A stretch of 64,000 nucleotides of DNA from Marinobacterium mangrovicola (GTDB taxonomy: Bacteria > Pseudomonadota > Gammaproteobacteria > Pseudomonadales > Balneatricaceae): positions 124,001 through 188,000 of the forward strand of contig NZ_SMFU01000007.1 of assembly GCF_004339595.1 (NCBI RefSeq). The letters are read 5' to 3'. Numbering within the stretch: position 1 is the stretch's first letter; each line of letters begins with the position of its first letter. A program made the position numbers and the translations under genes. This document shows positions 8,547-25,037 of the stretch, piece after piece. The notes beneath the pieces are model-generated. The model worked only from the letters and a program-made list of their open reading frames with translations. It was not told the DNA's origin and did not search any database.

Positions 8547-9296
8547 TCAGAGCGATTGCTGCCCAGGGTTGGCCGGGTAGAGGAAGCCGTGAATGGCGGG
8601 CCCCGTTGGTTGCCCGGTGGGTGAGCCGCCTTCAGGTTCCAGGCTGATCCCGAAGGTCGCCTGTTTCAGCAGAGCCGGGTCGTATTGTTCCAGGCTGGTG
8701 CCATCGATCTCCATGCGGGCGTTAAGTACACCCACCGACCTGGGTTTTGGACCCAGCGGGTCGGCCTTGATCCACAACTGGTAGGATCTGCCGGGGATCG
8801 CCTCGGCGGTCACCGGGGTGATACTCAGGCTGCGGCTCTGCAGATCGACGCTGAGCATAAACGCGGGTTGCTGGTCGTCATGCTGAAACACGGCGACAAA
8901 GGATTGCGGCGCGAGCTCAGGGGTGGGTTTGTTCAGCAGCAGGATGCACAGTAGTACCGATGCGGCAGAGGCGAGGGCAGTGCTCCATTGCCAGCGCCTC
9001 AGGCGTAATTTAAGTGCAGCAAACTGCGCTTCGGCGGCCGCAGTCTCGCCCGGCCAATGCTGGGTGGACTCCAGTTCATCCAGGCGCTGTTCGATACGGG
9101 AGAACAGGTTGGGCCCCGGTTTGATCTCATCGATCTCATTGCCGAGCGGCGCAAGGCGGTTTTCCCAGGCCTGGATCAGCTGGTCGAGCTCCGGCTCTCG
9201 CTCGCGCCGGCGTTTCACATCAGCGCGTGCTTCTGGCTCCAGCGTACCGAGCACGAACTCTGCGGCCAGCATGTCGAGATCGTCGTGATCGCTCAT
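8547..9296 (-). CDS. Anti-sigma factor, RskA-like
   Basis: A 249-residue membrane anti-sigma protein. The N-terminal cytoplasmic helical domain (DMLAAEFVLGTLEPEAR, EPELDQLIQAWENRLAPL) is the sigma-binding part and lacks the zinc HxxxCxxC motif. One membrane segment lies at about 105-125 (STALASAASVLLCILLL). The periplasmic RskA-type C-terminal domain has the typical RSYQLWIKADPLGPKPRSVGVL stretch. ATG 9296 overlaps the sigma stop codon as TGATG, a translational-coupling arrangement, and is preferred over the GTG at 9308. It sequesters the sigma factor encoded just upstream. Confidence 0.9.
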   Translation of the reverse strand: MSDHDDLDMLAAEFVLGTLEPEARADVKRRREREPELDQLIQAWENRLAPLGNEIDEIKPGPNLFSRIEQRLDELESTQHWPGETAAAEAQFAALKLRLRRWQWSTALASAASVLLCILLLNKPTPELAPQSFVAVFQHDDQQPAFMLSVDLQSRSLSITPVTAEAIPGRSYQLWIKADPLGPKPRSVGVLNARMEIDGTSLEQYDPALLKQATFGISLEPEGGSPTGQPTGPAIHGFLYPANPGQQSL

Positions 9297-9847
9297 CAGC
9301 TCATACACCCTTTTAACTGTTTCAACGCCCGGTGCAGCCAGGTTTTAATGGTATTCACCGGCTGCTCGAACCGTTCCGCCAACTCGATACGGGAGAGGCC
9401 ATCAAGATAAGCCAGGCGAACCAGGTCGGCGCGGCCATCTTCAAGCTGCTTGAGGCAGTGCAGCAGTTGCTCCTGCTCTCGACTCTGCGCCAGTTTCTGC
9501 TCGCCGTCTGGAAAGTGGCCGGGCAGTTGATCGATCATCTCGTCAGCGTCGTTGGCAGCGGCTGGTTCTCGCCGGAGCTGGTCGATGGCGGTGTTGCGTG
9601 CCAGTGTCACCAGCCAAGTGATCGGCGAGGCTTTGCCCGCATCAAAGCTGCCCGCTTTCTGCCAGACCTTGATGTAAGCCTCCTGCAGCACCTCTTCGCT
9701 CCAGCGCTCATTTTTCAAGATACGCAAAACCGTACCATAAAGTTTCGCCGAGGTTGCGGCGTAAAGCTGGGCGAAGGCCTGGCGGTCTTTGCCGGCGCAA
9801 CGTTCGAGCATTTCGGTCAGAGAGGGCGTTCGATCGGATTCGCGCAT
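9296..9847 (-). CDS. ECF-type RNA polymerase sigma factor
   Basis: A 183-residue ECF sigma factor with start ATG 9847; an upstream TTG at 9901 would add 18 residues. Region 2 shows AFAQLYAATSAKLYGTVLRIL and the -10-binding segment AYIKVWQKAGSFD...ASPITWLVTLARNTAIDQLRR. Region 4 ends with LAYLDGLSRIELAERF and a HTH (QPVNTIKTWLHRALKQL). It is coupled to the RskA-like anti-sigma gene. In the SigK/RskA-type groups the inducing signal acts on the membrane anti-sigma factor; the signal here is unknown. Confidence 0.94.
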   Translation of the reverse strand: MRESDRTPSLTEMLERCAGKDRQAFAQLYAATSAKLYGTVLRILKNERWSEEVLQEAYIKVWQKAGSFDAGKASPITWLVTLARNTAIDQLRREPAAANDADEMIDQLPGHFPDGEQKLAQSREQEQLLHCLKQLEDGRADLVRLAYLDGLSRIELAERFEQPVNTIKTWLHRALKQLKGCMS

Positions 9848-16128: not shown

Positions 16129-17082
16129 TCAGCCCTGTCTTAAAGACGGTTGGTAGCCGCCGGGGACACCGGCGGTAACCACCGCGACCGCATCGTGGGC
16201 ATGCAGGCTCTCCTGATGCTCCACCCTGATCCAGAAATCCTTCACCTCGTCTCGCTGGGAAAGCGCTTGGCTGATGCGGCGTGCGGCATCCTCACAGAAC
16301 ATCAGGTTGCTGCCGTTCAAACGGGCGAACGCCTGTTCGTCCTCCCGTTTGACCGCCGTCTGCACCGGTGTGCCCAGCGCGCCTTCCACTGCGGCTATCA
16401 GTGACTCGATCTCAAAGGCTGGGGCGTCTTCTTTAAGAGCCAGCTTAAGCTTCGCCCAGGAGCGCTGGCTGTGTGGCGTCGCCAGGGAGCCATTTGTTAG
16501 TAGCCATTCCCTGACTTCCTCCAGCGTCATCCTGGCCCGGTCGGCAAAGTCCGAGTCCAGTGCCTCGACAAGCAGTTGGCGGGATAAAGAGGCGGAGCAG
16601 GGGCAGGTGCTGGAGTAGGGGATTGCCAGTTCCAGCTCGATCAGCAGATCGTCTTGTAGCCTGGCATGAATGGCGGCTGGATACTCCTTCCAGCCACTGT
16701 TTTCGCTTTTCAGTGCAGGGCGCCGCGACAGGTAGGGAAACTGTACGGAAAGGCCTGCGGCATGGCTGATATCCCTGTGGGTCTCCAGTTGCTGCCAGAG
16801 AAAGCTGCTCAATACCGCGGGGGACAGCGGTGTGGATTCCGCCAGCTGCTCCAGCAGCAGATAGAGCCGCGACATATGGATCCCTTTCACCTCCGGGCGG
16901 GCGATATCGACATGAATATCCGCCTTGCCCTGCAGCGGCAGAGAACCGCGTTCGGCTTCCATAATCTGCAGAGGCAGAGCCATACCGGACATGCCGACCC
17001 AGTCCAGCCGGCTACTGATACCGGCTTTGGCGGAGGATGCGATATCGGGAAGATGATTTGGTGTGATGCTGAGGCTGTTCAT
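16129..17082 (-). CDS. folE2: GTP cyclohydrolase FolE2 (type IB)
   Basis: A 317-residue GCYH-IB enzyme: GTP to 7,8-dihydroneopterin triphosphate, the first step of folate and queuosine-type pathways. Family motifs visible are KGIHMSRLY, STCPCSASLSRQ (metal/catalytic Cys), TPHSQRS, NLMFCEDAARR and ESLHAHDAV. FolE2 can use metals other than zinc and often backs up zinc-dependent FolE under zinc starvation. The 17-base palindrome 33 bases upstream is a near-consensus Zur operator, which fits that role well. Confidence 0.96.
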   Translation of the reverse strand: MNSLSITPNHLPDIASSAKAGISSRLDWVGMSGMALPLQIMEAERGSLPLQGKADIHVDIARPEVKGIHMSRLYLLLEQLAESTPLSPAVLSSFLWQQLETHRDISHAAGLSVQFPYLSRRPALKSENSGWKEYPAAIHARLQDDLLIELELAIPYSSTCPCSASLSRQLLVEALDSDFADRARMTLEEVREWLLTNGSLATPHSQRSWAKLKLALKEDAPAFEIESLIAAVEGALGTPVQTAVKREDEQAFARLNGSNLMFCEDAARRISQALSQRDEVKDFWIRVEHQESLHAHDAVAVVTAGVPGGYQPSLRQG

Positions 17083-18711: not shown

Positions 18712-19005
18712 TTAATCGCCGATCAAAATCAGTTTGCCGGTTTCCGGATCACGGTAAACCTGGCCCACCGATTCATAGCCTGCACCTGTTTCGCCATTGA
18801 TTCCCTTGGGCATCTGCGGCAGTTCACGGCCTTCGCTGACCTGGCGCTTGCTGTTGAAGTGCTCCGCCAGCGATGGGCTTTGCGCCACCAGCGCGGCGAT
18901 CAGGCCGCAGGCGAACACCAGCATCAGGTCGATCAGGTTGGCCAGTGGGCCCAGGGGTTCGTCCATCTCCTGGTCGAAGCGGTTACTGCGCCAGCGTGAA
19001 CTCAT
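18712..19005 (-). CDS. DUF2149 protein, ExbD/TolR-like single-span protein
   Basis: A 97-residue protein. A short cytoplasmic N terminus is followed by a membrane segment at about 22-42 (ANLIDLMLVFACGLIAALV) and a periplasmic tail ending in a small VYRDPETGKLILIGD motif. The family usually sits beside ExbB-like and CobN-like genes. The stretch LIDLMLVF resembles the ExbD/TolR membrane motif FIDVMLVL, including the Asp used for proton transfer; this equivalence is my inference. Its ATG overlaps the stop codon of the ExbB-like gene (TGATG), so translation is coupled. Confidence 0.88.
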   Translation of the reverse strand: MSSRWRSNRFDQEMDEPLGPLANLIDLMLVFACGLIAALVAQSPSLAEHFNSKRQVSEGRELPQMPKGINGETGAGYESVGQVYRDPETGKLILIGD

Positions 19006-19484
19006 CAGGCAGCCTCCCTTAGATCGGCTGAACCGGCTTGCTGTTCGATAGCCTCCAGCTGTTCCATCAGCCGGTCGTACCAGCGGCGGCGCAGGCGGCC
19101 GAGCACAAAGCCGATAATGCCGCCGAGCAGGCCCATCACCGTGGTATCGAAGGCCACGGTCATCGCCGTGGTCAGCACCGACAGTTCGCCATCACCGAGG
19201 GCCGCAAGGCCGGGGCCGAGCGGGATGAGGGTGCCCATCAGGCCCAGCATCGGCGACAGGCGGGTGATGAAGTCCGCCCGTTCGATCCGTCGGCGCCCCT
19301 GCGCCAGCGCTGTGCTCATATCGCCACCGTGCAGCAGGCGTTGCAAACCGCCCCAGCGCTCGCCAAAGGCGAGGCCGATCTCCCAGATGCTCAGCAACAG
19401 AAGGAAAACCAGGCCCCAGACTACGGGCTCCAGCAGCAGGCTGGTGATCTGGTGCATCAGGTTGAGTGAGAAAGATGAAAGCAT
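19005..19484 (-). CDS. MotA/TolQ/ExbB-family proton channel protein
   Basis: A 159-residue protein. Membrane segments are at about 13-35 (EPVVWGLVFLLLLSIWEIGL), 72-92 (TRLSPMLGLMGTLIPLG) and 108-130 (MTVAFDTTVMGLLGGIIGFVLG), the three-span ExbB/TolQ layout with a basic loop GRRRIERAD between the first two. It is shorter than ExbB (about 240). With the DUF2149 protein it could form a proton-motive-force motor. Its ATG overlaps the stop of the CobN-like gene and its stop overlaps the DUF2149 start, so the three genes are translationally coupled. Confidence 0.9.
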   Translation of the reverse strand: MLSSFSLNLMHQITSLLLEPVVWGLVFLLLLSIWEIGLAFGERWGGLQRLLHGGDMSTALAQGRRRIERADFITRLSPMLGLMGTLIPLGPGLAALGDGELSVLTTAMTVAFDTTVMGLLGGIIGFVLGRLRRRWYDRLMEQLEAIEQQAGSADLREAA

Positions 19485-22400
19485 CAGCGTTTTCCTCCCA
19501 TGCGGCCACGAAGCAGGCCGGCAAACATGATCAACAGCGCCAGCGCGATCAGCACTGATAGCTCAAGGGTGTTGCTGGACTGGGCCTGGGTGTTGTCGCT
19601 GTTATCCGCAGCCTCGGCGTCAGTGCTGTCCGGCTCGGAAGCCTGCTGATCCTGAAGGCTGATCTCCCGAATATGACTTGGCTCGCTGTCCGTCTTCCAT
19701 TCCGTTTCAGGCATGCGGCTGTTGGCCTGCAACTGCTGAAGTGCTTGAGCGCTGTCGGCATCCAGCTTTGGCATGACGAACTGGTAGACCGGGTGGTCGG
19801 GGTGGGTGTGACCGCTGCCGGGAATGCCATGCTCGATAATCGAGCGGGCGAAGTCGCGGGAGAGCTGGTTCAGGGTTTCATCATCGGTCTGCCAGAACCC
19901 TTTTTCTGCCGCCACCAACATTACCGCCTGGATATTGGTCAGCACCTGCTGGTTGTGTCCCTCGCGCAGAAACTCGTCTAGGCCCAGTTCAAACCGGTCA
20001 TCAAGGTAGACAGCCTTCACCTCATCCCAGACACGGGACTGGATGATCTCCGGGCTGGTTACCTGCCAGCCCCAGAGGTACTCGATAAACTCGCTGCCCA
20101 TAGTGCGGGCGCCGGAGTAGCCCTCGTCCATCAGCGGTTTGATCCACTGGGGGTTAAGGAATCGGCCGCGCAGCTCGCTACCCAGCGCCTGGGCTAGCGG
20201 GTCGAGACGGGCGTTATCCGCGTCGGCATGTTGAATCACGTAGCTGGTGGGCGGGGCGCCGGTGACGGTTTCCACCGCCAGGTTGAGGCCGCCGAGGTAG
20301 TCGAAGGCATCGTTGTTATCGATCAGACCGTACAGGTGGCTGGCGCGACCGAGATAGCTGCGACCCACCTGGCTGAGCTGGTTGCTGAAGTGATCCTGGG
20401 CGCTGAGCCCGTCCAGGCTCATGCCATAGGCGTGGCCAAGGCGGGCGATATAGGCCTGGCCCAGTTCCTGACGCTGCTGCCAGCTGCCGGAGCGCTCCAC
20501 CAGACGGTTCACACCCGCGCCGTATGCGCCCGGTGCCGATCCGAATACCCGCAGCGATGCCTGGCGGCCCAGTTCGGAGGCGCTGGCCGTTGGGTTTCTC
20601 AGCATGAGTCGTGCTTCTTCAACCCAGTTGGCGGCGATCAGGTTTTGTTCCAGGGTTTCATTGCCGGCTGTGTATTCGGTCAGAGGCTCCAGAGCACCTG
20701 TCAGAGCGCTGTCCAGTGCCGGGTAGTCGCGACGAATGGTCTCTTCGCTGGCCGCGAGACTCAGCAGGACTGCTTCGTCGAGCCACTTGAGCTGGCGCCC
20801 GTACAGGTCGCGGAAAAGCCCCGAGGTGGTAAAAAGCACATCGTGACGGCGCGGTCGGCTCTGATCCAGCGGGATCAGTTTCAGCCCCTTGATGATGCCG
20901 CGACTGTTCCAGACCGGGGTGACGCCGAGCATATCGAAGCCGAAGCCGATCATCGCGCCTTCATCACGCACTGCGTCGGAGGCCCATAGGATCACCGCTT
21001 CCTTCTTGCGCCGTTCCGCCTCGGTCATCGGCTTGCTGCGCGCATCGGCCGCGAGCTCGGCACCGAGCTTGAAGCCAAGTGGCGTCGGCAGCAGGCTGCC
21101 GTCCAGAGCGTGAAAGTTGCGCCCGGTAGGCAGTGCCTCCGGTGTCTTGATAGGATCGTTACCCTTGCCTGGCGCCACAAAACCACCGTTGAGCGCGTTG
21201 ATCAGCGCATCCATCTCCAGCTGCGGCGAGCGGGTCAGGTTATCGCGCCACTGGGGTTTGATGTTGTCGCTGTCCGCCATGGAGGAGAGCATGGTGTCGA
21301 TGGCGTCCGGCTCCCACTGGCGACCGAAGGTGTGCAGCCCCAGCGGCATGAACGCCTCCTGCAGCTTGGTCAGATAGTGGCCGACCTCATGCAGCAGGAA
21401 CTCGTCATCGACCTGGTCGAAGCCGATGCCGCGTACCTTCAGCTCTTCATCCATGCTGGCGATCAGTTCTTCACGCAGCCCCAGGCTATCGATCCGTTCA
21501 CGCAGATCTTCCACCGCACGGCGGCGGGTAACCGGATCGCTGGCTGCTTCGGCGCTTTCGATCAGCTGACGTACGCTGAGCAGGTCGTCGTACAGCTCGG
21601 TCACCGCCAGTGGTGGCGTCAGGTGGTCGATGATCACCGCCTTGCCGCGCCGCTTGGCCTGAATTCCCTCGCCAACGCCGTCGACGATATAGGGGTAGAT
21701 GCTGGGCAGGTCGCCGAGCACCAGGGATGGGTAATCATCTTCGCCGAGGCCGACACTGCGCCTGGGCAGAAATTCGTAGGTGGAGTGGCGGCCCAGGTGG
21801 ATCAGCGCATCGGCCTTAAAGTCGTCGCGTAGGTAGTGGTAAAAGCCCAGGTACTGGTGCGGCGGCGGGAAAGTCATATTGGCGTGCAGCAGCTCTTCGT
21901 TGAGCTCCCAGCCGCGCGGCGGCTGCGGGCCGACAAAGATGTTGCCGAACTGCAGACCCGGTAGCAGCATACGGTCCTGCCAGATCATGCTGCGCCCCGG
22001 TGCCTCGCCCCAACCGCGCATCCCCTCGATGCCCATATGCACCAGCGCCGTGACCAGTTCACCGGCGTTTTGCCATTGGTTAATGCGCTGCTCGTCGGCA
22101 AGATCGTCGCCAAGCAGAACCGTGTAGCTGTCTTTGAGCTGATCGAGCAGATCCAGGGCGCGGCTGCGACGCTGGTCACGCACGCCGTCGAGGGCGTGGC
22201 GCAGATCGCCCAGGCTGCGCTGGATCAGTGTGGCCATCTCCTGGTGTACACCGGGGTCGATAGGCTGGGCGCGGTTGCTCGACAGCAGCGGCTTCAGCCG
22301 GGTATGCAAGTAGCCCAGGGGGCCGCGCACCATCTCCTGTTGCACTGTCTCCGGCAGGGTGGCAAACCACTGGCGGTAATCCTCGCTGCTTACGCCTTTG

Positions 22401-23872
22401 ACCAGCGGTGCCATCTGCTCCAGCGCATGACGATCCTCGGGCAGGTTGACACCGCGCTCCTGCAGCAGGTCCAGCAGCGCTTCGGGCGACTGCGGCAGGG
22501 TGCCCGTAGCGTAGCCCTGGTCTTTCAGGGCGTTGAGAATCTGCCACAGAGATTCGGGCACATTGAGGTTGTCGGCGCCGATATTGTGGCGTCCCGGCGG
22601 ATGGTTGTAATAGACGATGGCAACGCGCTTGTCGGCGTTGTCCTTGCGCTGCAGCGCCAGCCAGTGCTGGATACGGCCAAGAATACGTTCCACCGCCTTG
22701 TCGATTGGCTGTGAAAGAATCAGGCGCGCGCCGGTCACCTCGTCAACTTTGGCAGGGGTGGAGAGTGCCAATACTTCTGGCTGGCCGATTCCCTGCAGCT
22801 CGGGCATCGCCACACGATAATACACGGAGTCGGCAGGCAGGCCGTTGGCAGAAAGCGCGTAGCTGTCGGCGTTGTACTCGTCGACACGGATACCCTTGAA
22901 CACCGGCACGTTGAGTTCACTGAGCCTGGCGCTGACCGCTTCGCGACCTTCGCCGCCGCCGATAACGAAGTCCTGCACCGACAGGATCGCCCAGGCGGAT
23001 TGTTTGGGTGCAAGCGCCTGGATCTGCTCGATGGCCTCTTCGCTGCCGGCGCCCCAGGCTGCCAGCAGCGTCACGCACTGCAGCTCGCTCTGGCTGCAAA
23101 GTTTGCGGTGCAGGCTCCAGTTGCCGGGCAGATCGCCGCTCTGGTGGTCGAGCACGAACAGGGTATCGCGATCTTCCATGGCAGCTGCCAGCTCCTCCAG
23201 TTCGACCGGCCTGGTATTGAGATAGGCGCGTACCGGTGCATTCACTCTGGCGGCGGCAGGTTCCGCGCTCGGGTCCAGCAGCAGCTGCCAGAGCGCGTGG
23301 ATATTGCCGGCGTTGCGGTTCTGCCAGTAGCTGCGCGCGTCGAGCCAGTGGTTAAAGTGCGGCAGCGCCTGTTTCTGCTGCGCCAGCCATTCAGGGAAGG
23401 GCTGATCCGTCGGCGGGCGGCTGAACAGTTTCTCTTTGGTCTCTGCATCTAGCCCGGTGAAGCGGCCACCTTCGGCATCCTTGTGCAGGTCATAGAGACG
23501 TCGGTCGCTGTGAAAGACCAGCCGCTGCTGGTCGCTTTGGACAGGCAGAGCCAGCAGGCGCTCAACCGGCGCGCCGAAAACGCCGGCATAGATCAGCGTT
23601 GCCGCCGGTGAGATCAGTGCTTCCAGCGCGGCATCGTCCATCTCGTTTACCTGGGCGACGCTGCGGATCTGGATACTCGCATCCGGATGATCCTCCAGAA
23701 AGCGGTAGGCGCCGGCCGCCATCACCGGGGCTGAGCGGTCTGAGACGATCGCCACGGCGCTGTGCGTGGCGGCCTGAACCTGGCTGAACATCGCACTGGC
23801 GAACAGGCAGAACAGCGCTGTCAGCCAGATAGTGAGGGCTGGAGCAGGTGATAGAGATGAACGGTTGCGCAT
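19484..23872 (-). CDS. cobN: CobN-family chelatase-like protein with signal peptide and C-terminal membrane anchor
   Basis: A 1462-residue CobN/magnesium-chelatase H-type protein. Family motifs are present: NIGADNLNVPESLW, HLGRHSTYEFLP, LGDLPSIYPYIVDGVGEG, QAKRRGKAVIIDHLTPPL, LPTGRNFHALDGSLLPT and SGLFRDLYGRQL. Classical CobN is cytoplasmic and inserts cobalt into hydrogenobyrinate diamide with CobS/CobT. This one instead has an N-terminal signal (ALTIWLTALFCLFASAMF, cut near VQA-ATHS) and a C-terminal membrane helix (SVLIALALLIMFAGLL) followed by RGRMGGKR, so the body should face the periplasm. ATG 23872 is chosen because AGGAG lies 7 bases upstream; the ORF continues to 24010 through the leader. 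No CobS/CobT genes are in the window. It is controlled by the cobalamin riboswitch upstream. Confidence 0.93.
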   Translation of the reverse strand: MRNRSSLSPAPALTIWLTALFCLFASAMFSQVQAATHSAVAIVSDRSAPVMAAGAYRFLEDHPDASIQIRSVAQVNEMDDAALEALISPAATLIYAGVFGAPVERLLALPVQSDQQRLVFHSDRRLYDLHKDAEGGRFTGLDAETKEKLFSRPPTDQPFPEWLAQQKQALPHFNHWLDARSYWQNRNAGNIHALWQLLLDPSAEPAAARVNAPVRAYLNTRPVELEELAAAMEDRDTLFVLDHQSGDLPGNWSLHRKLCSQSELQCVTLLAAWGAGSEEAIEQIQALAPKQSAWAILSVQDFVIGGGEGREAVSARLSELNVPVFKGIRVDEYNADSYALSANGLPADSVYYRVAMPELQGIGQPEVLALSTPAKVDEVTGARLILSQPIDKAVERILGRIQHWLALQRKDNADKRVAIVYYNHPPGRHNIGADNLNVPESLWQILNALKDQGYATGTLPQSPEALLDLLQERGVNLPEDRHALEQMAPLVKGVSSEDYRQWFATLPETVQQEMVRGPLGYLHTRLKPLLSSNRAQPIDPGVHQEMATLIQRSLGDLRHALDGVRDQRRSRALDLLDQLKDSYTVLLGDDLADEQRINQWQNAGELVTALVHMGIEGMRGWGEAPGRSMIWQDRMLLPGLQFGNIFVGPQPPRGWELNEELLHANMTFPPPHQYLGFYHYLRDDFKADALIHLGRHSTYEFLPRRSVGLGEDDYPSLVLGDLPSIYPYIVDGVGEGIQAKRRGKAVIIDHLTPPLAVTELYDDLLSVRQLIESAEAASDPVTRRRAVEDLRERIDSLGLREELIASMDEELKVRGIGFDQVDDEFLLHEVGHYLTKLQEAFMPLGLHTFGRQWEPDAIDTMLSSMADSDNIKPQWRDNLTRSPQLEMDALINALNGGFVAPGKGNDPIKTPEALPTGRNFHALDGSLLPTPLGFKLGAELAADARSKPMTEAERRKKEAVILWASDAVRDEGAMIGFGFDMLGVTPVWNSRGIIKGLKLIPLDQSRPRRHDVLFTTSGLFRDLYGRQLKWLDEAVLLSLAASEETIRRDYPALDSALTGALEPLTEYTAGNETLEQNLIAANWVEEARLMLRNPTASASELGRQASLRVFGSAPGAYGAGVNRLVERSGSWQQRQELGQAYIARLGHAYGMSLDGLSAQDHFSNQLSQVGRSYLGRASHLYGLIDNNDAFDYLGGLNLAVETVTGAPPTSYVIQHADADNARLDPLAQALGSELRGRFLNPQWIKPLMDEGYSGARTMGSEFIEYLWGWQVTSPEIIQSRVWDEVKAVYLDDRFELGLDEFLREGHNQQVLTNIQAVMLVAAEKGFWQTDDETLNQLSRDFARSIIEHGIPGSGHTHPDHPVYQFVMPKLDADSAQALQQLQANSRMPETEWKTDSEPSHIREISLQDQQASEPDSTDAEAADNSDNTQAQSSNTLELSVLIALALLIMFAGLLRGRMGGKR

Positions 23873-24044
23873 GCAGACTCCTGAATAAGATCTACACGCA
23901 CCGGCAAGTACTGGGATTAACCGTCGGAACTTGGAACAGATACAGGCTCTCCGCTGCGGTAGACGCAAGGGTCTTCCGGGTCGCGGATACTGATGCTGTT
24001 TCAGGGACACCCCGCCTGATGCGCATGGAGATAACCGCTATGGG

Positions 24045-24245
24045 CGGTCATCTGGCAGGCCGGTCTCCGGGCTTGGAAAGTGTCTTTGGATAGACGGCGC
24101 GCTCGGCCTTCCCACAGCGTAAAGGCTGCAGTGGCGGTGATGAGGCGCTTGGCTTTCGTTACCGTTGCGGGGGCAGCGCAGGATTTTCACCTGACTTCCC
24201 GATTATCCCCGCCGCGCTGGAATGGCAGCGGGGCACCTGCAATTG
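24045..24245 (-). promoter_or_regulatory. Cobalamin riboswitch
   Basis: On the minus strand the leader of the CobN-like gene contains the conserved cobalamin aptamer elements in order: GGTGCC near the 5' end, TCAGGTGAAAATCCTG, GCTGCCCCCGCAACGGTAA, the B12-box part GCCACTG, GGGAAGGCCGAGCG, and the closing GCCCGGAGACCGGCCTG. Cobalamin binding should lower expression of the CobN-like/ExbB-like/DUF2149 operon. About 170 bases of expression platform separate the aptamer from the start codon. Boundaries are approximate. The riboswitch fills most of the 420-base gap between this operon and the flavodoxin gene. Confidence 0.95.
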
Positions 24246-24292
24246 CGGGGCAGATTACCGGCAGGCGGTCGGGATCGCAAGCAGGGTAGCTC

Positions 24293-24850
24293 TCAGGCTG
24301 CAGACTCCAATGACTCCAGCAGTTGCGGCTTGATCTGCTCAACCCATTGTTCGAGCCGCGCGTCGGTCAGCATCCCCTGGGTACGTTGGTCGATCACAAG
24401 GCCTACGAACCTGTCGACGATGGCGGCTGCCGAATATTCAAAGGTATAACCCTCGGTGCTCCAATCTCCAACCATCGTCGCGCCCTTCATGGCGAAGGTC
24501 TGATAAAGCGCCATCAGCGAGCTGGCGAAACGCTCGGAGTAGCGCTCCTGGGCACCCAAGCCAAACATGGCGATGCGTTTGCCGCTAAGATCGGGCGAGC
24601 CGAACTGCGCCAGAAACTCACCCCAGTTAGGCTCGAAGCAGCCGGAGACGCCCTTGCCGGGAATGTCGCCCTCGCCATAGCTAGGCGTACCGAGAATCAG
24701 TGCATCGTACTTGAGCATATCTTCCGGCGTGATGCGGTTGACGTTGATCGGCTTGTCGGCGATGTCGCTGCCGAGCAGTTTGTAGATTTTCTTGGCGATC
24801 AGGCGGGTGGTGCCGGTTTCGGTGCCGAAAAAAATGCCGATTTTGTTCAT
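24293..24850 (-). CDS. Long-chain flavodoxin
   Basis: A 185-residue FMN electron carrier. The phosphate-binding loop GTETGTTR is at residues 9-16, the second FMN loop is GTPSYGEGDIPG, and the isoalloxazine-contact region is FGLGAQERYSERF. The inserted loop GDWSTEGYTFEYSAA marks the long-chain (NifF/FldA) type. ATG 24850 has AGGGC upstream. It is on the same strand as the CobN-like operon, about 50 bases before the riboswitch. Flavodoxin can reduce corrinoid or radical-SAM enzymes, but a link to the B12 operon is only suggested by position. Confidence 0.94.
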   Translation of the reverse strand: MNKIGIFFGTETGTTRLIAKKIYKLLGSDIADKPINVNRITPEDMLKYDALILGTPSYGEGDIPGKGVSGCFEPNWGEFLAQFGSPDLSGKRIAMFGLGAQERYSERFASSLMALYQTFAMKGATMVGDWSTEGYTFEYSAAAIVDRFVGLVIDQRTQGMLTDARLEQWVEQIKPQLLESLESAA

Positions 24851-25037
24851 AGTAAGCCCTCTATTCGTAGGAAAGCCGACACGTAACACGTGTTTTCGCC
24901 CGCAGTTAGGTGCTTTGGGAACCAAACCCAAGCGTCAGATCAGGATTTTGCAAAGTAGATGCCATATGAATGATTTAGTACTTGCTGATATCTATTTCTG
25001 TGAGTAGGTTTTAGACAGATCTCTTTCATGCCACCTT

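Follow-up and report, generated by a model that had tools for sequence, protein, structure and literature searches.

A riboswitch-controlled, exported CobN-like protein with ExbB and DUF2149 partners in Marinobacterium mangrovicola, a candidate proton-driven cobaltochelatase

CobNST and ChlIDH, chelatases of class I, are known to run on ATP, and the reason for this energy need is not fully understood (PMC7689651). Most of the remaining bacterial and archaeal sequences of the superfamily cannot yet be annotated reliably, as stated in an EMBO J paper (PMC12583661). Exported CobN-like proteins with ExbB-like partners are already known, namely as BtuS, as HmuSTUV, as PA1922-PA1925 and from a cluster of Geobacter lovleyi. 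In the literature searched, with most subscription journals outside it, no statement was found that an exported CobN acts as a late cobaltochelatase or is driven by ExbB-DUF2149. Here we describe a module of this kind, a cobalamin riboswitch followed by a CobN-like, an ExbB-like and a DUF2149 gene, that lies in a stretch of 64,000 nucleotides of Marinobacterium mangrovicola DNA (contig NZ_SMFU01000007.1; 'the window' hereafter). We tentatively favour the reading that it encodes a B12-repressed periplasmic cobaltochelatase of the BtuS/HmuS type that draws its energy from an ExbB-DUF2149 proton motor in place of CobS/CobT. The gene order, riboswitch, topology signature, residue typing and co-occurrence were directly observed, and the classical partners searched for were not found. 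This reading would be the simplest account of the B12 repression, the position in the pathway, the genomes in which this protein is the sole CobN, the cleft and the constant pairing of the genes.

The described systems resemble the module to different degrees. In the hmu operon of the Bacteroidota (PMC12583661, PMC10434189, PMC13227078), HmuS likewise has an exported, membrane-anchored class I chelatase fold and is partnered by the ExbB-like HmuU and the DUF2149 protein HmuV; the operon also has a TonB receptor. HmuS differs in acting on heme, by dechelation and under iron control, and in having His1209 and a methionine-rich insertion, whereas the window protein and its close relatives (clade A, see below) have a B12 riboswitch, a corrinoid gene context, Asp1188 and no insertion. 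The BtuS family, named by Rodionov et al. in 2003 according to PMC6460266, comprises CobN-like proteins that stand apart from CobN and ChlH, are predicted to be exported and to take part in metalloporphyrin salvage (PMC6460266). Clade A proteins are likewise related to CobN, distinct from CobN and ChlH, and appear to be exported and membrane-attached; a difference is that BtuS1 and BtuS2 of Bacteroides fragilis affect the use of heme iron (PMC6460266). With the cytosolic CobNST and CobN-ChlID systems (PMC7689651) clade A has in common the family, Asp1185 and Asp1188 and the neighbours cbiA/cobB and btuR/cobO, but no CobT or ChlI/ChlD was found with it, it is predicted to be exported, it is accompanied by ExbB-DUF2149 and the window protein has the motif HLGRHS in the place of HxGKHG. 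PA1922-PA1925 of Pseudomonas aeruginosa (PMC4542158, PMC8531726, PMC13083405) also combine a CobN-like gene with a TonB receptor, and PA1924 has been called an ExbD homologue; this operon is Zur-regulated and under zinc control, unlike clade A. Finally, the cobN-exbB-exbD-tonB cluster of Geobacter lovleyi plasmid pSZ77, as described (PMC3403914), has a CobN without CobS/CobT beside Ton-type genes and was linked by its authors to cobalamin metabolism, its role being unknown. It differs by its TonB gene and by belonging to a genome whose plasmid carries cbi-type cobalamin genes.

The module is located on the minus strand of the window, in the order given above. The aptamer (RF00174; 24041-24255) was recovered by cmscan with 104.6 bits (E 4.1e-25, gathering score 31.5), which agrees with the riboswitch that a preliminary description of this DNA had recognized upstream of the CobN-family gene; the end proposed there, 24245, was about right. 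The CobN-like gene (19484-23872; PF02514, 801.9 bits) has AGGAG upstream of its start ATG at 23872 and encodes 1462 residues of clade A BtuS type. As read from the sequence, its product starts with MRN and has a signal-peptide-like N-terminus of 34 residues (23771-23872), ending in QVQA before AT, and a C-terminal transmembrane helix (residues 1436-1454; 19511-19567), followed by the basic tail RGRMGGKR. Nine NCBIfam CobN/BchH models matched it, each with a score short of the model's cut-off; the best was 619 versus 1619 bits. The next gene (19005-19484; PF01618, 40 bits, cut-off 22.9) encodes an ExbB/TolQ-like proton-channel subunit of 159 residues with three helices, and the last one (18712-19005; PF09919, 38.1 bits, cut-off 27.1) a DUF2149 protein of 97 residues with one membrane helix and a short tail. 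Both joints, cobN/exbB and exbB/DUF2149, are TGATG overlaps that can be read directly in the sequence, and the twofold coupling put forward earlier thus stands. No terminator-like site was found around the riboswitch leader, from 23800 to 24400, and in the predicted fold of the leader the start region is paired into a stem (z -2.07), which would be compatible with translational control of cobN.

A scan of a genome collection yielded 280 relatives; the locus counts given below refer to the best 80 of these, which are named. The closest of them was the CobN of Marinobacterium lutimaris, with 96% identity in the best segment. The exbB gene directly follows cobN in all 80, and DUF2149 comes next in 78; the two loci without it (L086 and L127) both stop at a contig end. 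Considering that the same order recurs in 78 of the 80 relatives, the gene set is not a matter of chance. Among 369 gammaproteobacterial genomes DUF2149 was present in 21, which divide into 12 clade A modules (window included), 8 modules of a second type, clade B (two of them known from CobN fragments only), and one weak match without CobN. The identity to the window CobN in this sample was 47-53% for clade A and 23-32%, in pieces, for clade B. A tree of 50 sequences, made with a quick method and with HmuS not included, showed four groups, each of them a single one: clade A (30 rows), clade B (11 rows, among them two plasmid copies and, from three genomes, the second CobN), cytosolic CobN with its archaeal members (6 rows) and BchH (3 rows), with support values of 100, 96, 99 and 100, respectively, in the Shimodaira-Hasegawa-like approximate likelihood ratio test (SH-aLRT). 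Judged by sequence, the window CobN belongs to clade A, which is distinct from cytosolic CobN, from BchH and from the second exported clade. A second CobN was found in 5 of the 24 named genomes that were searched for PF02514 (G375, G393, G402, G411 and G413). With respect to clade B, we observed that genome G197 (locus L028, contig C54) has CbiC and, as its only CobN, a clade B protein beside a TonB receptor, and that a plasmid of Azospirillum brasilense (L153, 3335-10964) carries a clade B cobN with ExbB and DUF2149, followed by an ATP-binding cassette (ABC) transporter whose annotations read substrate-binding protein and iron permease.

CobG marks the oxygen-dependent cobalamin route, in which cobalt is inserted late. 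This late insertion in the aerobic route is described in PMC7689651. Among the gammaproteobacterial genomes with a clade A module, 3 of 12 have CbiC, as do 5 of 49 named genomes, two sets that may overlap in species. CobG scored above the cut-off of 234.8 in 5 of these 8 genomes, i.e. G236 (323.0 bits), Zhongshania marina (G373; 276.2), Z. aliphaticivorans (G390; 269.4), G121 (269.0) and G089 (247.1), and in all five the sole PF02514 protein is of clade A. CobT was not found in any of the five, CobS not having been searched with a model of its own, and the best matches to the ChlI/ChlD-type model were of 26.7-50.8 bits (with 29 of 33 candidates scored in G236), a level that is also reached by unrelated proteins in other genomes; the match of Z. 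marina covers only the C-terminal part of the model. Since these five genomes would need a late cobaltochelatase and have clade A as their only CobN, we read the clade A protein as a candidate for the sole late chelatase in them. In three of them (G236, G089 and G121) the module lies inside the cob cluster itself. The order in G236 is riboswitch, cobN, exbB, DUF2149, bluB, btuR, cobB, cobA, cbiD, two ABC genes, cobG, cobH, cobI, cobJ and cbiET. An ABC-2 ATPase-permease pair is located between cbiD and cobG in three CobG clusters (L041 2789-4758, L038 3692-5409 and L050 14909-16755), and is a possible exporter of a corrin intermediate; no match to it was found in the two Zhongshania clusters examined. 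In Zhongshania sp. G381 and Spongiibacter thalassae G382, which probably use the anaerobic route, CbiG-like and CbiX-like genes gave matches below cut-off, and the stretch examined gave no CobG match. Azotobacter chroococcum is a natural positive control for the chelatase-partner searches: its cob cluster contains a classical CobN (1322.7 bits) together with ChlI, ChlD and CobW, and a clade A module is present elsewhere as a second CobN copy. In a tblastn search of 101 loci with CobW, ChlI, ChlD and CbiX-like queries, matches were limited to this Azotobacter cluster (CobW, ChlI and ChlD), to L036 (CobW, 27%) and to two CbiX-like clusters. Classical cobN mostly adjoins cobW (PMC2770081).

The genome that contains the window (4.98 Mb; assembly 99.64% complete) has one CobN (PF02514), and two cobalamin riboswitches were found in it (150 of 283 candidates scored). 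No CbiC/CobH, which served as the marker of ring synthesis, was found in it. The chelatase partner CobT was not found either, no model of CobS itself having been used. With the ChlI/ChlD-type model, for which 29 of 36 candidates were scored, the top match (53.1 bits) was a protein that fits best to a sortase-target family. The preliminary description had called both CobS and CobT absent; for CobT this holds and can be widened to the lack of a ChlI/ChlD-grade match, while for CobS it goes further than the searches made. A complete CobNST pathway that could use this CobN was not encountered elsewhere in the genome, as far as it was searched. The second riboswitch heads a salvage operon of btuB, a BtuM-like gene, btuR, cbiA, bluB, cbiB, a cobD/cobC-type aminotransferase gene, cbiP, cobU, cobT (here the dimethylbenzimidazole phosphoribosyltransferase), cobC and cobS. 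The BtuM-like protein (L006, 5160-5732), a membrane protein of 190 residues encoded between btuB and btuR, gave no hit in Pfam or NCBIfam at E 0.001 and matched PDB entry 8c7p, 'Cobalamin ABC transporter', with E 2.9e-36. The cell thus has no ring-synthesis marker but keeps the genes that lead from (hydrogeno)byrinate to cobalamin.

That the module is under the control of B12, as had been read from the window, is supported by the relatives as well. A hand-written riboswitch motif was found at 19 of the 80 loci only, and a covariance model built from 13 riboswitches at 67, on the strand of cobN and at most 700 bases upstream in 50 cases and further upstream in 17. For seven of the 13 loci without a riboswitch the upstream sequence is shorter than 2 kb. 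A spot-check with Rfam confirmed the call at 5 of 6 loci and gave none at L119, which had reached 13.1 bits with our model. In the gammaproteobacterial sample a riboswitch precedes 11 of the 12 clade A modules (in G256 with 30.1 bits, below the gathering score, and in G072 about 3.3 kb upstream), and 0 of the 8 clade B modules had one on the same contig. A consensus search for Zur boxes matched 9 of the 80 clade A loci and none of 13 loci of clade B type, which did not exceed the level of a single shuffled control and is uninformative. In 25 of the 80 loci the flanks contain btuB, or else two or more further cobalamin genes. At seven loci of the Colwellia group the order is btuM-cbiA-cobN-exbB-DUF2149-btuR, and the slot between cbiA and btuR corresponds to where the aerobic pathway has its cobaltochelatase step. 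In G140 two riboswitches are followed by btuB, btuM, cobN, exbB, DUF2149, btuR, cbiA, bluB, one more gene, cbiB, cobD and cbiP. Within 3 kb upstream and 3.5 kb downstream of the module, 23 of the 80 loci have a BtuB-like or weaker receptor match (9 strong, 14 weak).

Some loci contain additional riboswitches. A second one directly follows DUF2149 in L107 (15040-15274) and L116 (15041-15332), ahead of a btuB operon, and in L087 (15067-15230) and L093 (6657-6850), ahead of a receptor that is only weakly like BtuB and perhaps meant for another corrinoid. Divergent riboswitches upstream of cobN occur in L066 and L069 (both 9091-9329), L122 (7636-7854) and L125 (7497-7709), where the receptor on the opposite strand is again weakly like BtuB (56-87 bits).

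The cleft of clade A was compared to those of the nearest solved structures. The best PDB match of the window CobN was HmuS (9d26), followed by CobN (9uk9), and the whole-profile scores were 494 bits for HmuS, 478 for CobN and 446 for ChlH. Alignment to 9d26 places H696 (21785-21787), within the motif HLGRHS, at the catalytic His538 of HmuS; this column is His in 90 of 90 clade A sequences. The corresponding motif is HxGKHG in three CobNs and HxGTHG in clade B and HmuS. The column of D1188 (20309-20311), which aligns with His1209 of HmuS, is Asp in all 90 clade A sequences, in the cobaltochelatase CobNs 7c6o and 9uk9 and in Azotobacter CobN, and His in HmuS and ChlH. The HmuS motif LSLDHxxEFMGG, which contains His1209, accordingly does not occur in clade A. 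The heme ligands Met79 and His254 of HmuS fall outside the aligned stretch considered here. E1201, also conserved in 90 of 90, is the same in 9uk9 and Azotobacter CobN. Judging from length and Met content, the methionine-rich domain IV insertion of HmuS is missing: the spacing between the columns of H696 and L914 has a median of 222 residues in clade A versus about 424 in HmuS, the latter figure reckoned from the alignment to 9d26. At the second catalytic His the clade A cleft would therefore appear to differ from HmuS in the direction of the cobaltochelatases, which is not decisive. As a candidate in its own right, an orthologue of HmuS was ruled out on the His1209 position and the missing insertion, though HmuS is the nearest solved relative.

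The earlier proposal that the CobN-like protein has a signal peptide and a C-terminal helix, and resides in the envelope, is supported by hydropathy and charge statistics over the 90 clade A sequences. All 90 have an N-terminal hydrophobic stretch, which is absent from the one cytosolic CobN in the same alignment; a small-x-small motif follows in 85, and in 74 there is more positive charge before the stretch than after it. A C-terminal helix passes the hydropathy threshold in 86 of 90, with more positive charge after than before in 83. Of the four exceptions, the frames of L090 and L102 end early and L098 and L114 have weaker helices. The proteins thus have HmuS-like segments at both ends, and not the lack of membrane segments of a cytosolic CobN. 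The pairing with a proton-channel module, which had been proposed as well, is borne out by the constancy of exbB (80/80) and DUF2149 (78/80). The ExbB-like protein, with PF01618 above cut-off, has the three-helix ExbB/TolQ fold in an AlphaFold model of high confidence (predicted local distance difference test, pLDDT, 91.7), and its 46 best Foldseek matches in the PDB comprise 45 ExbB/TolQ chains and one flagellar stator (best E 4.6e-3). The model of DUF2149 is poor (pLDDT 64.5) with one confident helix, residues 19-42. This single N-terminal helix with its conserved Asp has an ExbD-like layout, D26 (18928-18930), invariant in 79 of 79 sequences, being placed like Asp25 of ExbD. By sequence tests, however, DUF2149 failed as an ExbD homologue or passed weakly at best: 0 of 20 members had an ExbD family match, and hhalign put LIDLMLVF of DUF2149 on FIDVMLVL of E. 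coli ExbD with a probability of only 4.4%. A plasmid of Marinobacter sp. M3C (NZ_CP092285.1; L152) carries a clade A cobN between cbiA and cobO that has kept the signal-like N-terminus and misses the C-terminal helix, and no exbB or DUF2149 was found in the 20 kb examined, the rest of the genome not having been searched. This single case suggests that the motor belongs to the tail of CobN and not to BtuB. The plasmid region (L152, 652-15060) reads riboswitch, then cobD, btuB-, btuF-, btuC- and btuD-like genes, cbiA, cobN, cobO, cbiP and bluB.

If the module is a proton-driven cobaltochelatase of the periplasm, a low level of adenosylcobalamin (AdoCbl) would let the riboswitch permit production of the CobN paralogue, which would leave the cytoplasm via its signal peptide but stay anchored in the inner membrane through the C-terminal helix. 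On the periplasmic side it would bind a corrin ring and insert cobalt. As there is no ATP in the periplasm, the energy otherwise obtained from CobS/CobT or ChlI/ChlD would come from the ExbB-DUF2149 proton channel, acting on the membrane helix of CobN. We infer here the substrate, the direction of the reaction (insertion) and the coupling to the motor with its use of the proton motive force. In the window genome, where no CbiC was found, metal-free or incomplete corrins would in this way become usable by the BtuB-BtuM-BtuR-CbiA-CbiP-CobUST salvage operon; we infer this salvage of metal-free corrins from the cbiA and cbiP of genomes without CbiC. The roles considered in the preliminary description, cobalt capture, corrinoid remodelling or uptake, can thus be narrowed, as the evidence points to cobalt insertion into corrin precursors, with uptake as the main rival. 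A wider claim, which we regard as possible but doubtful, is that late cobalt insertion can take place outside the cytoplasm by an exported cobaltochelatase in which the AAA+ ATPase is replaced by an ExbB-DUF2149 motor, and that the same motor-coupled frame has been re-used, with different regulators, for further metals and rings (heme and perhaps zinc). If true, this would add a novel means of powering metal insertion into B12 precursors. In a periplasmic enzyme run by a proton channel, catalytic subunit and motor would be separated, so that the question of the energy need could be tested. The model would further supply the missing chelatase step to those aerobic B12 producers where no CobT or ChlI/ChlD was found, suggest how bacteria without ring synthesis could use incomplete corrins, and provide a function for the DUF2149 partner that the module has in common with the gut heme system.

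Several observations weigh against a motor-driven cobaltochelatase. In vitro, HmuS completed 1-2 turnovers although no motor subunit had been added (PMC12583661), and the chemistry itself may thus do without the motor. No ExbD family match was present among the 20 DUF2149 members. In the CobG genomes the CobNs also have signal-like N-termini, though their substrate would be made in the cytoplasm, and the ring would have to reach the periplasm; the ABC-2 pair is found in 3 of the 5 clusters. The module is also present in the two genomes with CbiG/CbiX-like genes and an apparently anaerobic route, and in one genome, that of Azotobacter, in addition to a classical CobN, where it is not needed for synthesis. 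Two genomes with an exported CobN and without CbiC yet have CobT-like matches below cut-off, i.e. Pseudomonas sp. SJZ079 (G400, C27; 271 bits) and an Ectothiorhodospiraceae genome (G395, C165; 148 bits); two others among the 29 genomes searched gave matches of 28-35 bits. With respect to the cleft, the nearest solved relative by whole-sequence score is a dechelatase (HmuS, 494 versus 478 bits for CobN); the D1188 column is Asp in 7 of 9 exported sequences of clade B type as well (His in 2); D1185 (90/90 in clade A) is common to CobN and ChlH, with Ser in HmuS; and the E1201 column is Arg in the Mycobacterium CobN 7c6o, as in HmuS and most of clade B. The M3C plasmid, finally, represents one deletion and could be a case of decay.

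The alternative to be considered foremost, though in our view rather unlikely, is a corrinoid uptake machine in which ExbB-DUF2149 would be a dedicated Ton-like energiser and the exported CobN would bind periplasmic corrinoid and help to draw corrinoids in via BtuB or hand its ligand to BtuM/BtuCDF. Such a machine would fit the B12 repression and the BtuB-like or weaker receptors near 23 of the 80 loci, and it has precedents: HmuU/HmuV were assigned to powering the import of heme over the outer membrane (PMC12583661) and a transport role was proposed for the Geobacter lovleyi cobN-exbB-exbD-tonB cluster (PMC3403914). However, 57 of the 80 loci have no BtuB-like match in range (receptors unlike BtuB could be missed, and TonB genes were not searched), and no BtuB-like receptor was recognized among the window neighbours scanned. 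The M3C plasmid, moreover, keeps btuB- and btuFCD-like genes without exbB, DUF2149 and the CobN tail, the chelatase residues H696 and D1188 are invariant, and uptake leaves the five CobG genomes without another CobN unexplained. An activity like that of HmuS, by which metal would be stripped in the periplasm from tetrapyrroles such as heme or Zn- or wrong-metal corrins, we hold to be unlikely. It is suggested by HmuS being the nearest solved relative by score and by the same anchored architecture and ExbB/DUF2149 partners in the hmu operon (PMC12583661), whereas clade A has Asp in place of His1209 and lacks the methionine-rich insertion (222 versus about 424 residues), and control by AdoCbl makes little sense for stripping cobalt from B12, which counts against dechelation.

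We consider it improbable that the protein does not act on corrins at all and captures or releases Co(II) (or zinc) for the cytoplasm. A P. aeruginosa znuA mutant over-expressing PA1922-PA1925, with its cobN-like gene, contained more cellular cobalt (PMC4542158), but that operon is Zur-controlled, unlike clade A. Clade A stands among corrinoid-processing genes at 25 of 80 loci, and the CobW query matched only L036 (27%) among the module loci; the cobN-like gene of PA1922-PA1925 is, we presume, of clade B type. That the window protein is an ordinary CobN of the CobNST pathway, mistaken for an exported one, would fit its membership of PF02514 but is very hard to maintain given the hydrophobic N-terminal segment in 90 of 90 sequences, the scores below the CobN cut-offs and the separate clade (SH-aLRT 100), and given that CobT, CbiC and a ChlI/ChlD-grade match (29 of 36 candidates scored) were not found in the window genome. 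An ordinary CobNST was rejected on the cut-offs, the single CobN and the same three negative searches. A cobaltochelatase driven by the proton motor remains the reading that we tentatively favour.

The module is flanked, on the same strand, by folE2 (16129-17082) and a flavodoxin gene (24293-24856). Among the related loci a flavodoxin gene is nearby in 2 of 80 and folE2 in 3 of 80, so that these genes are not constant neighbours of the module.

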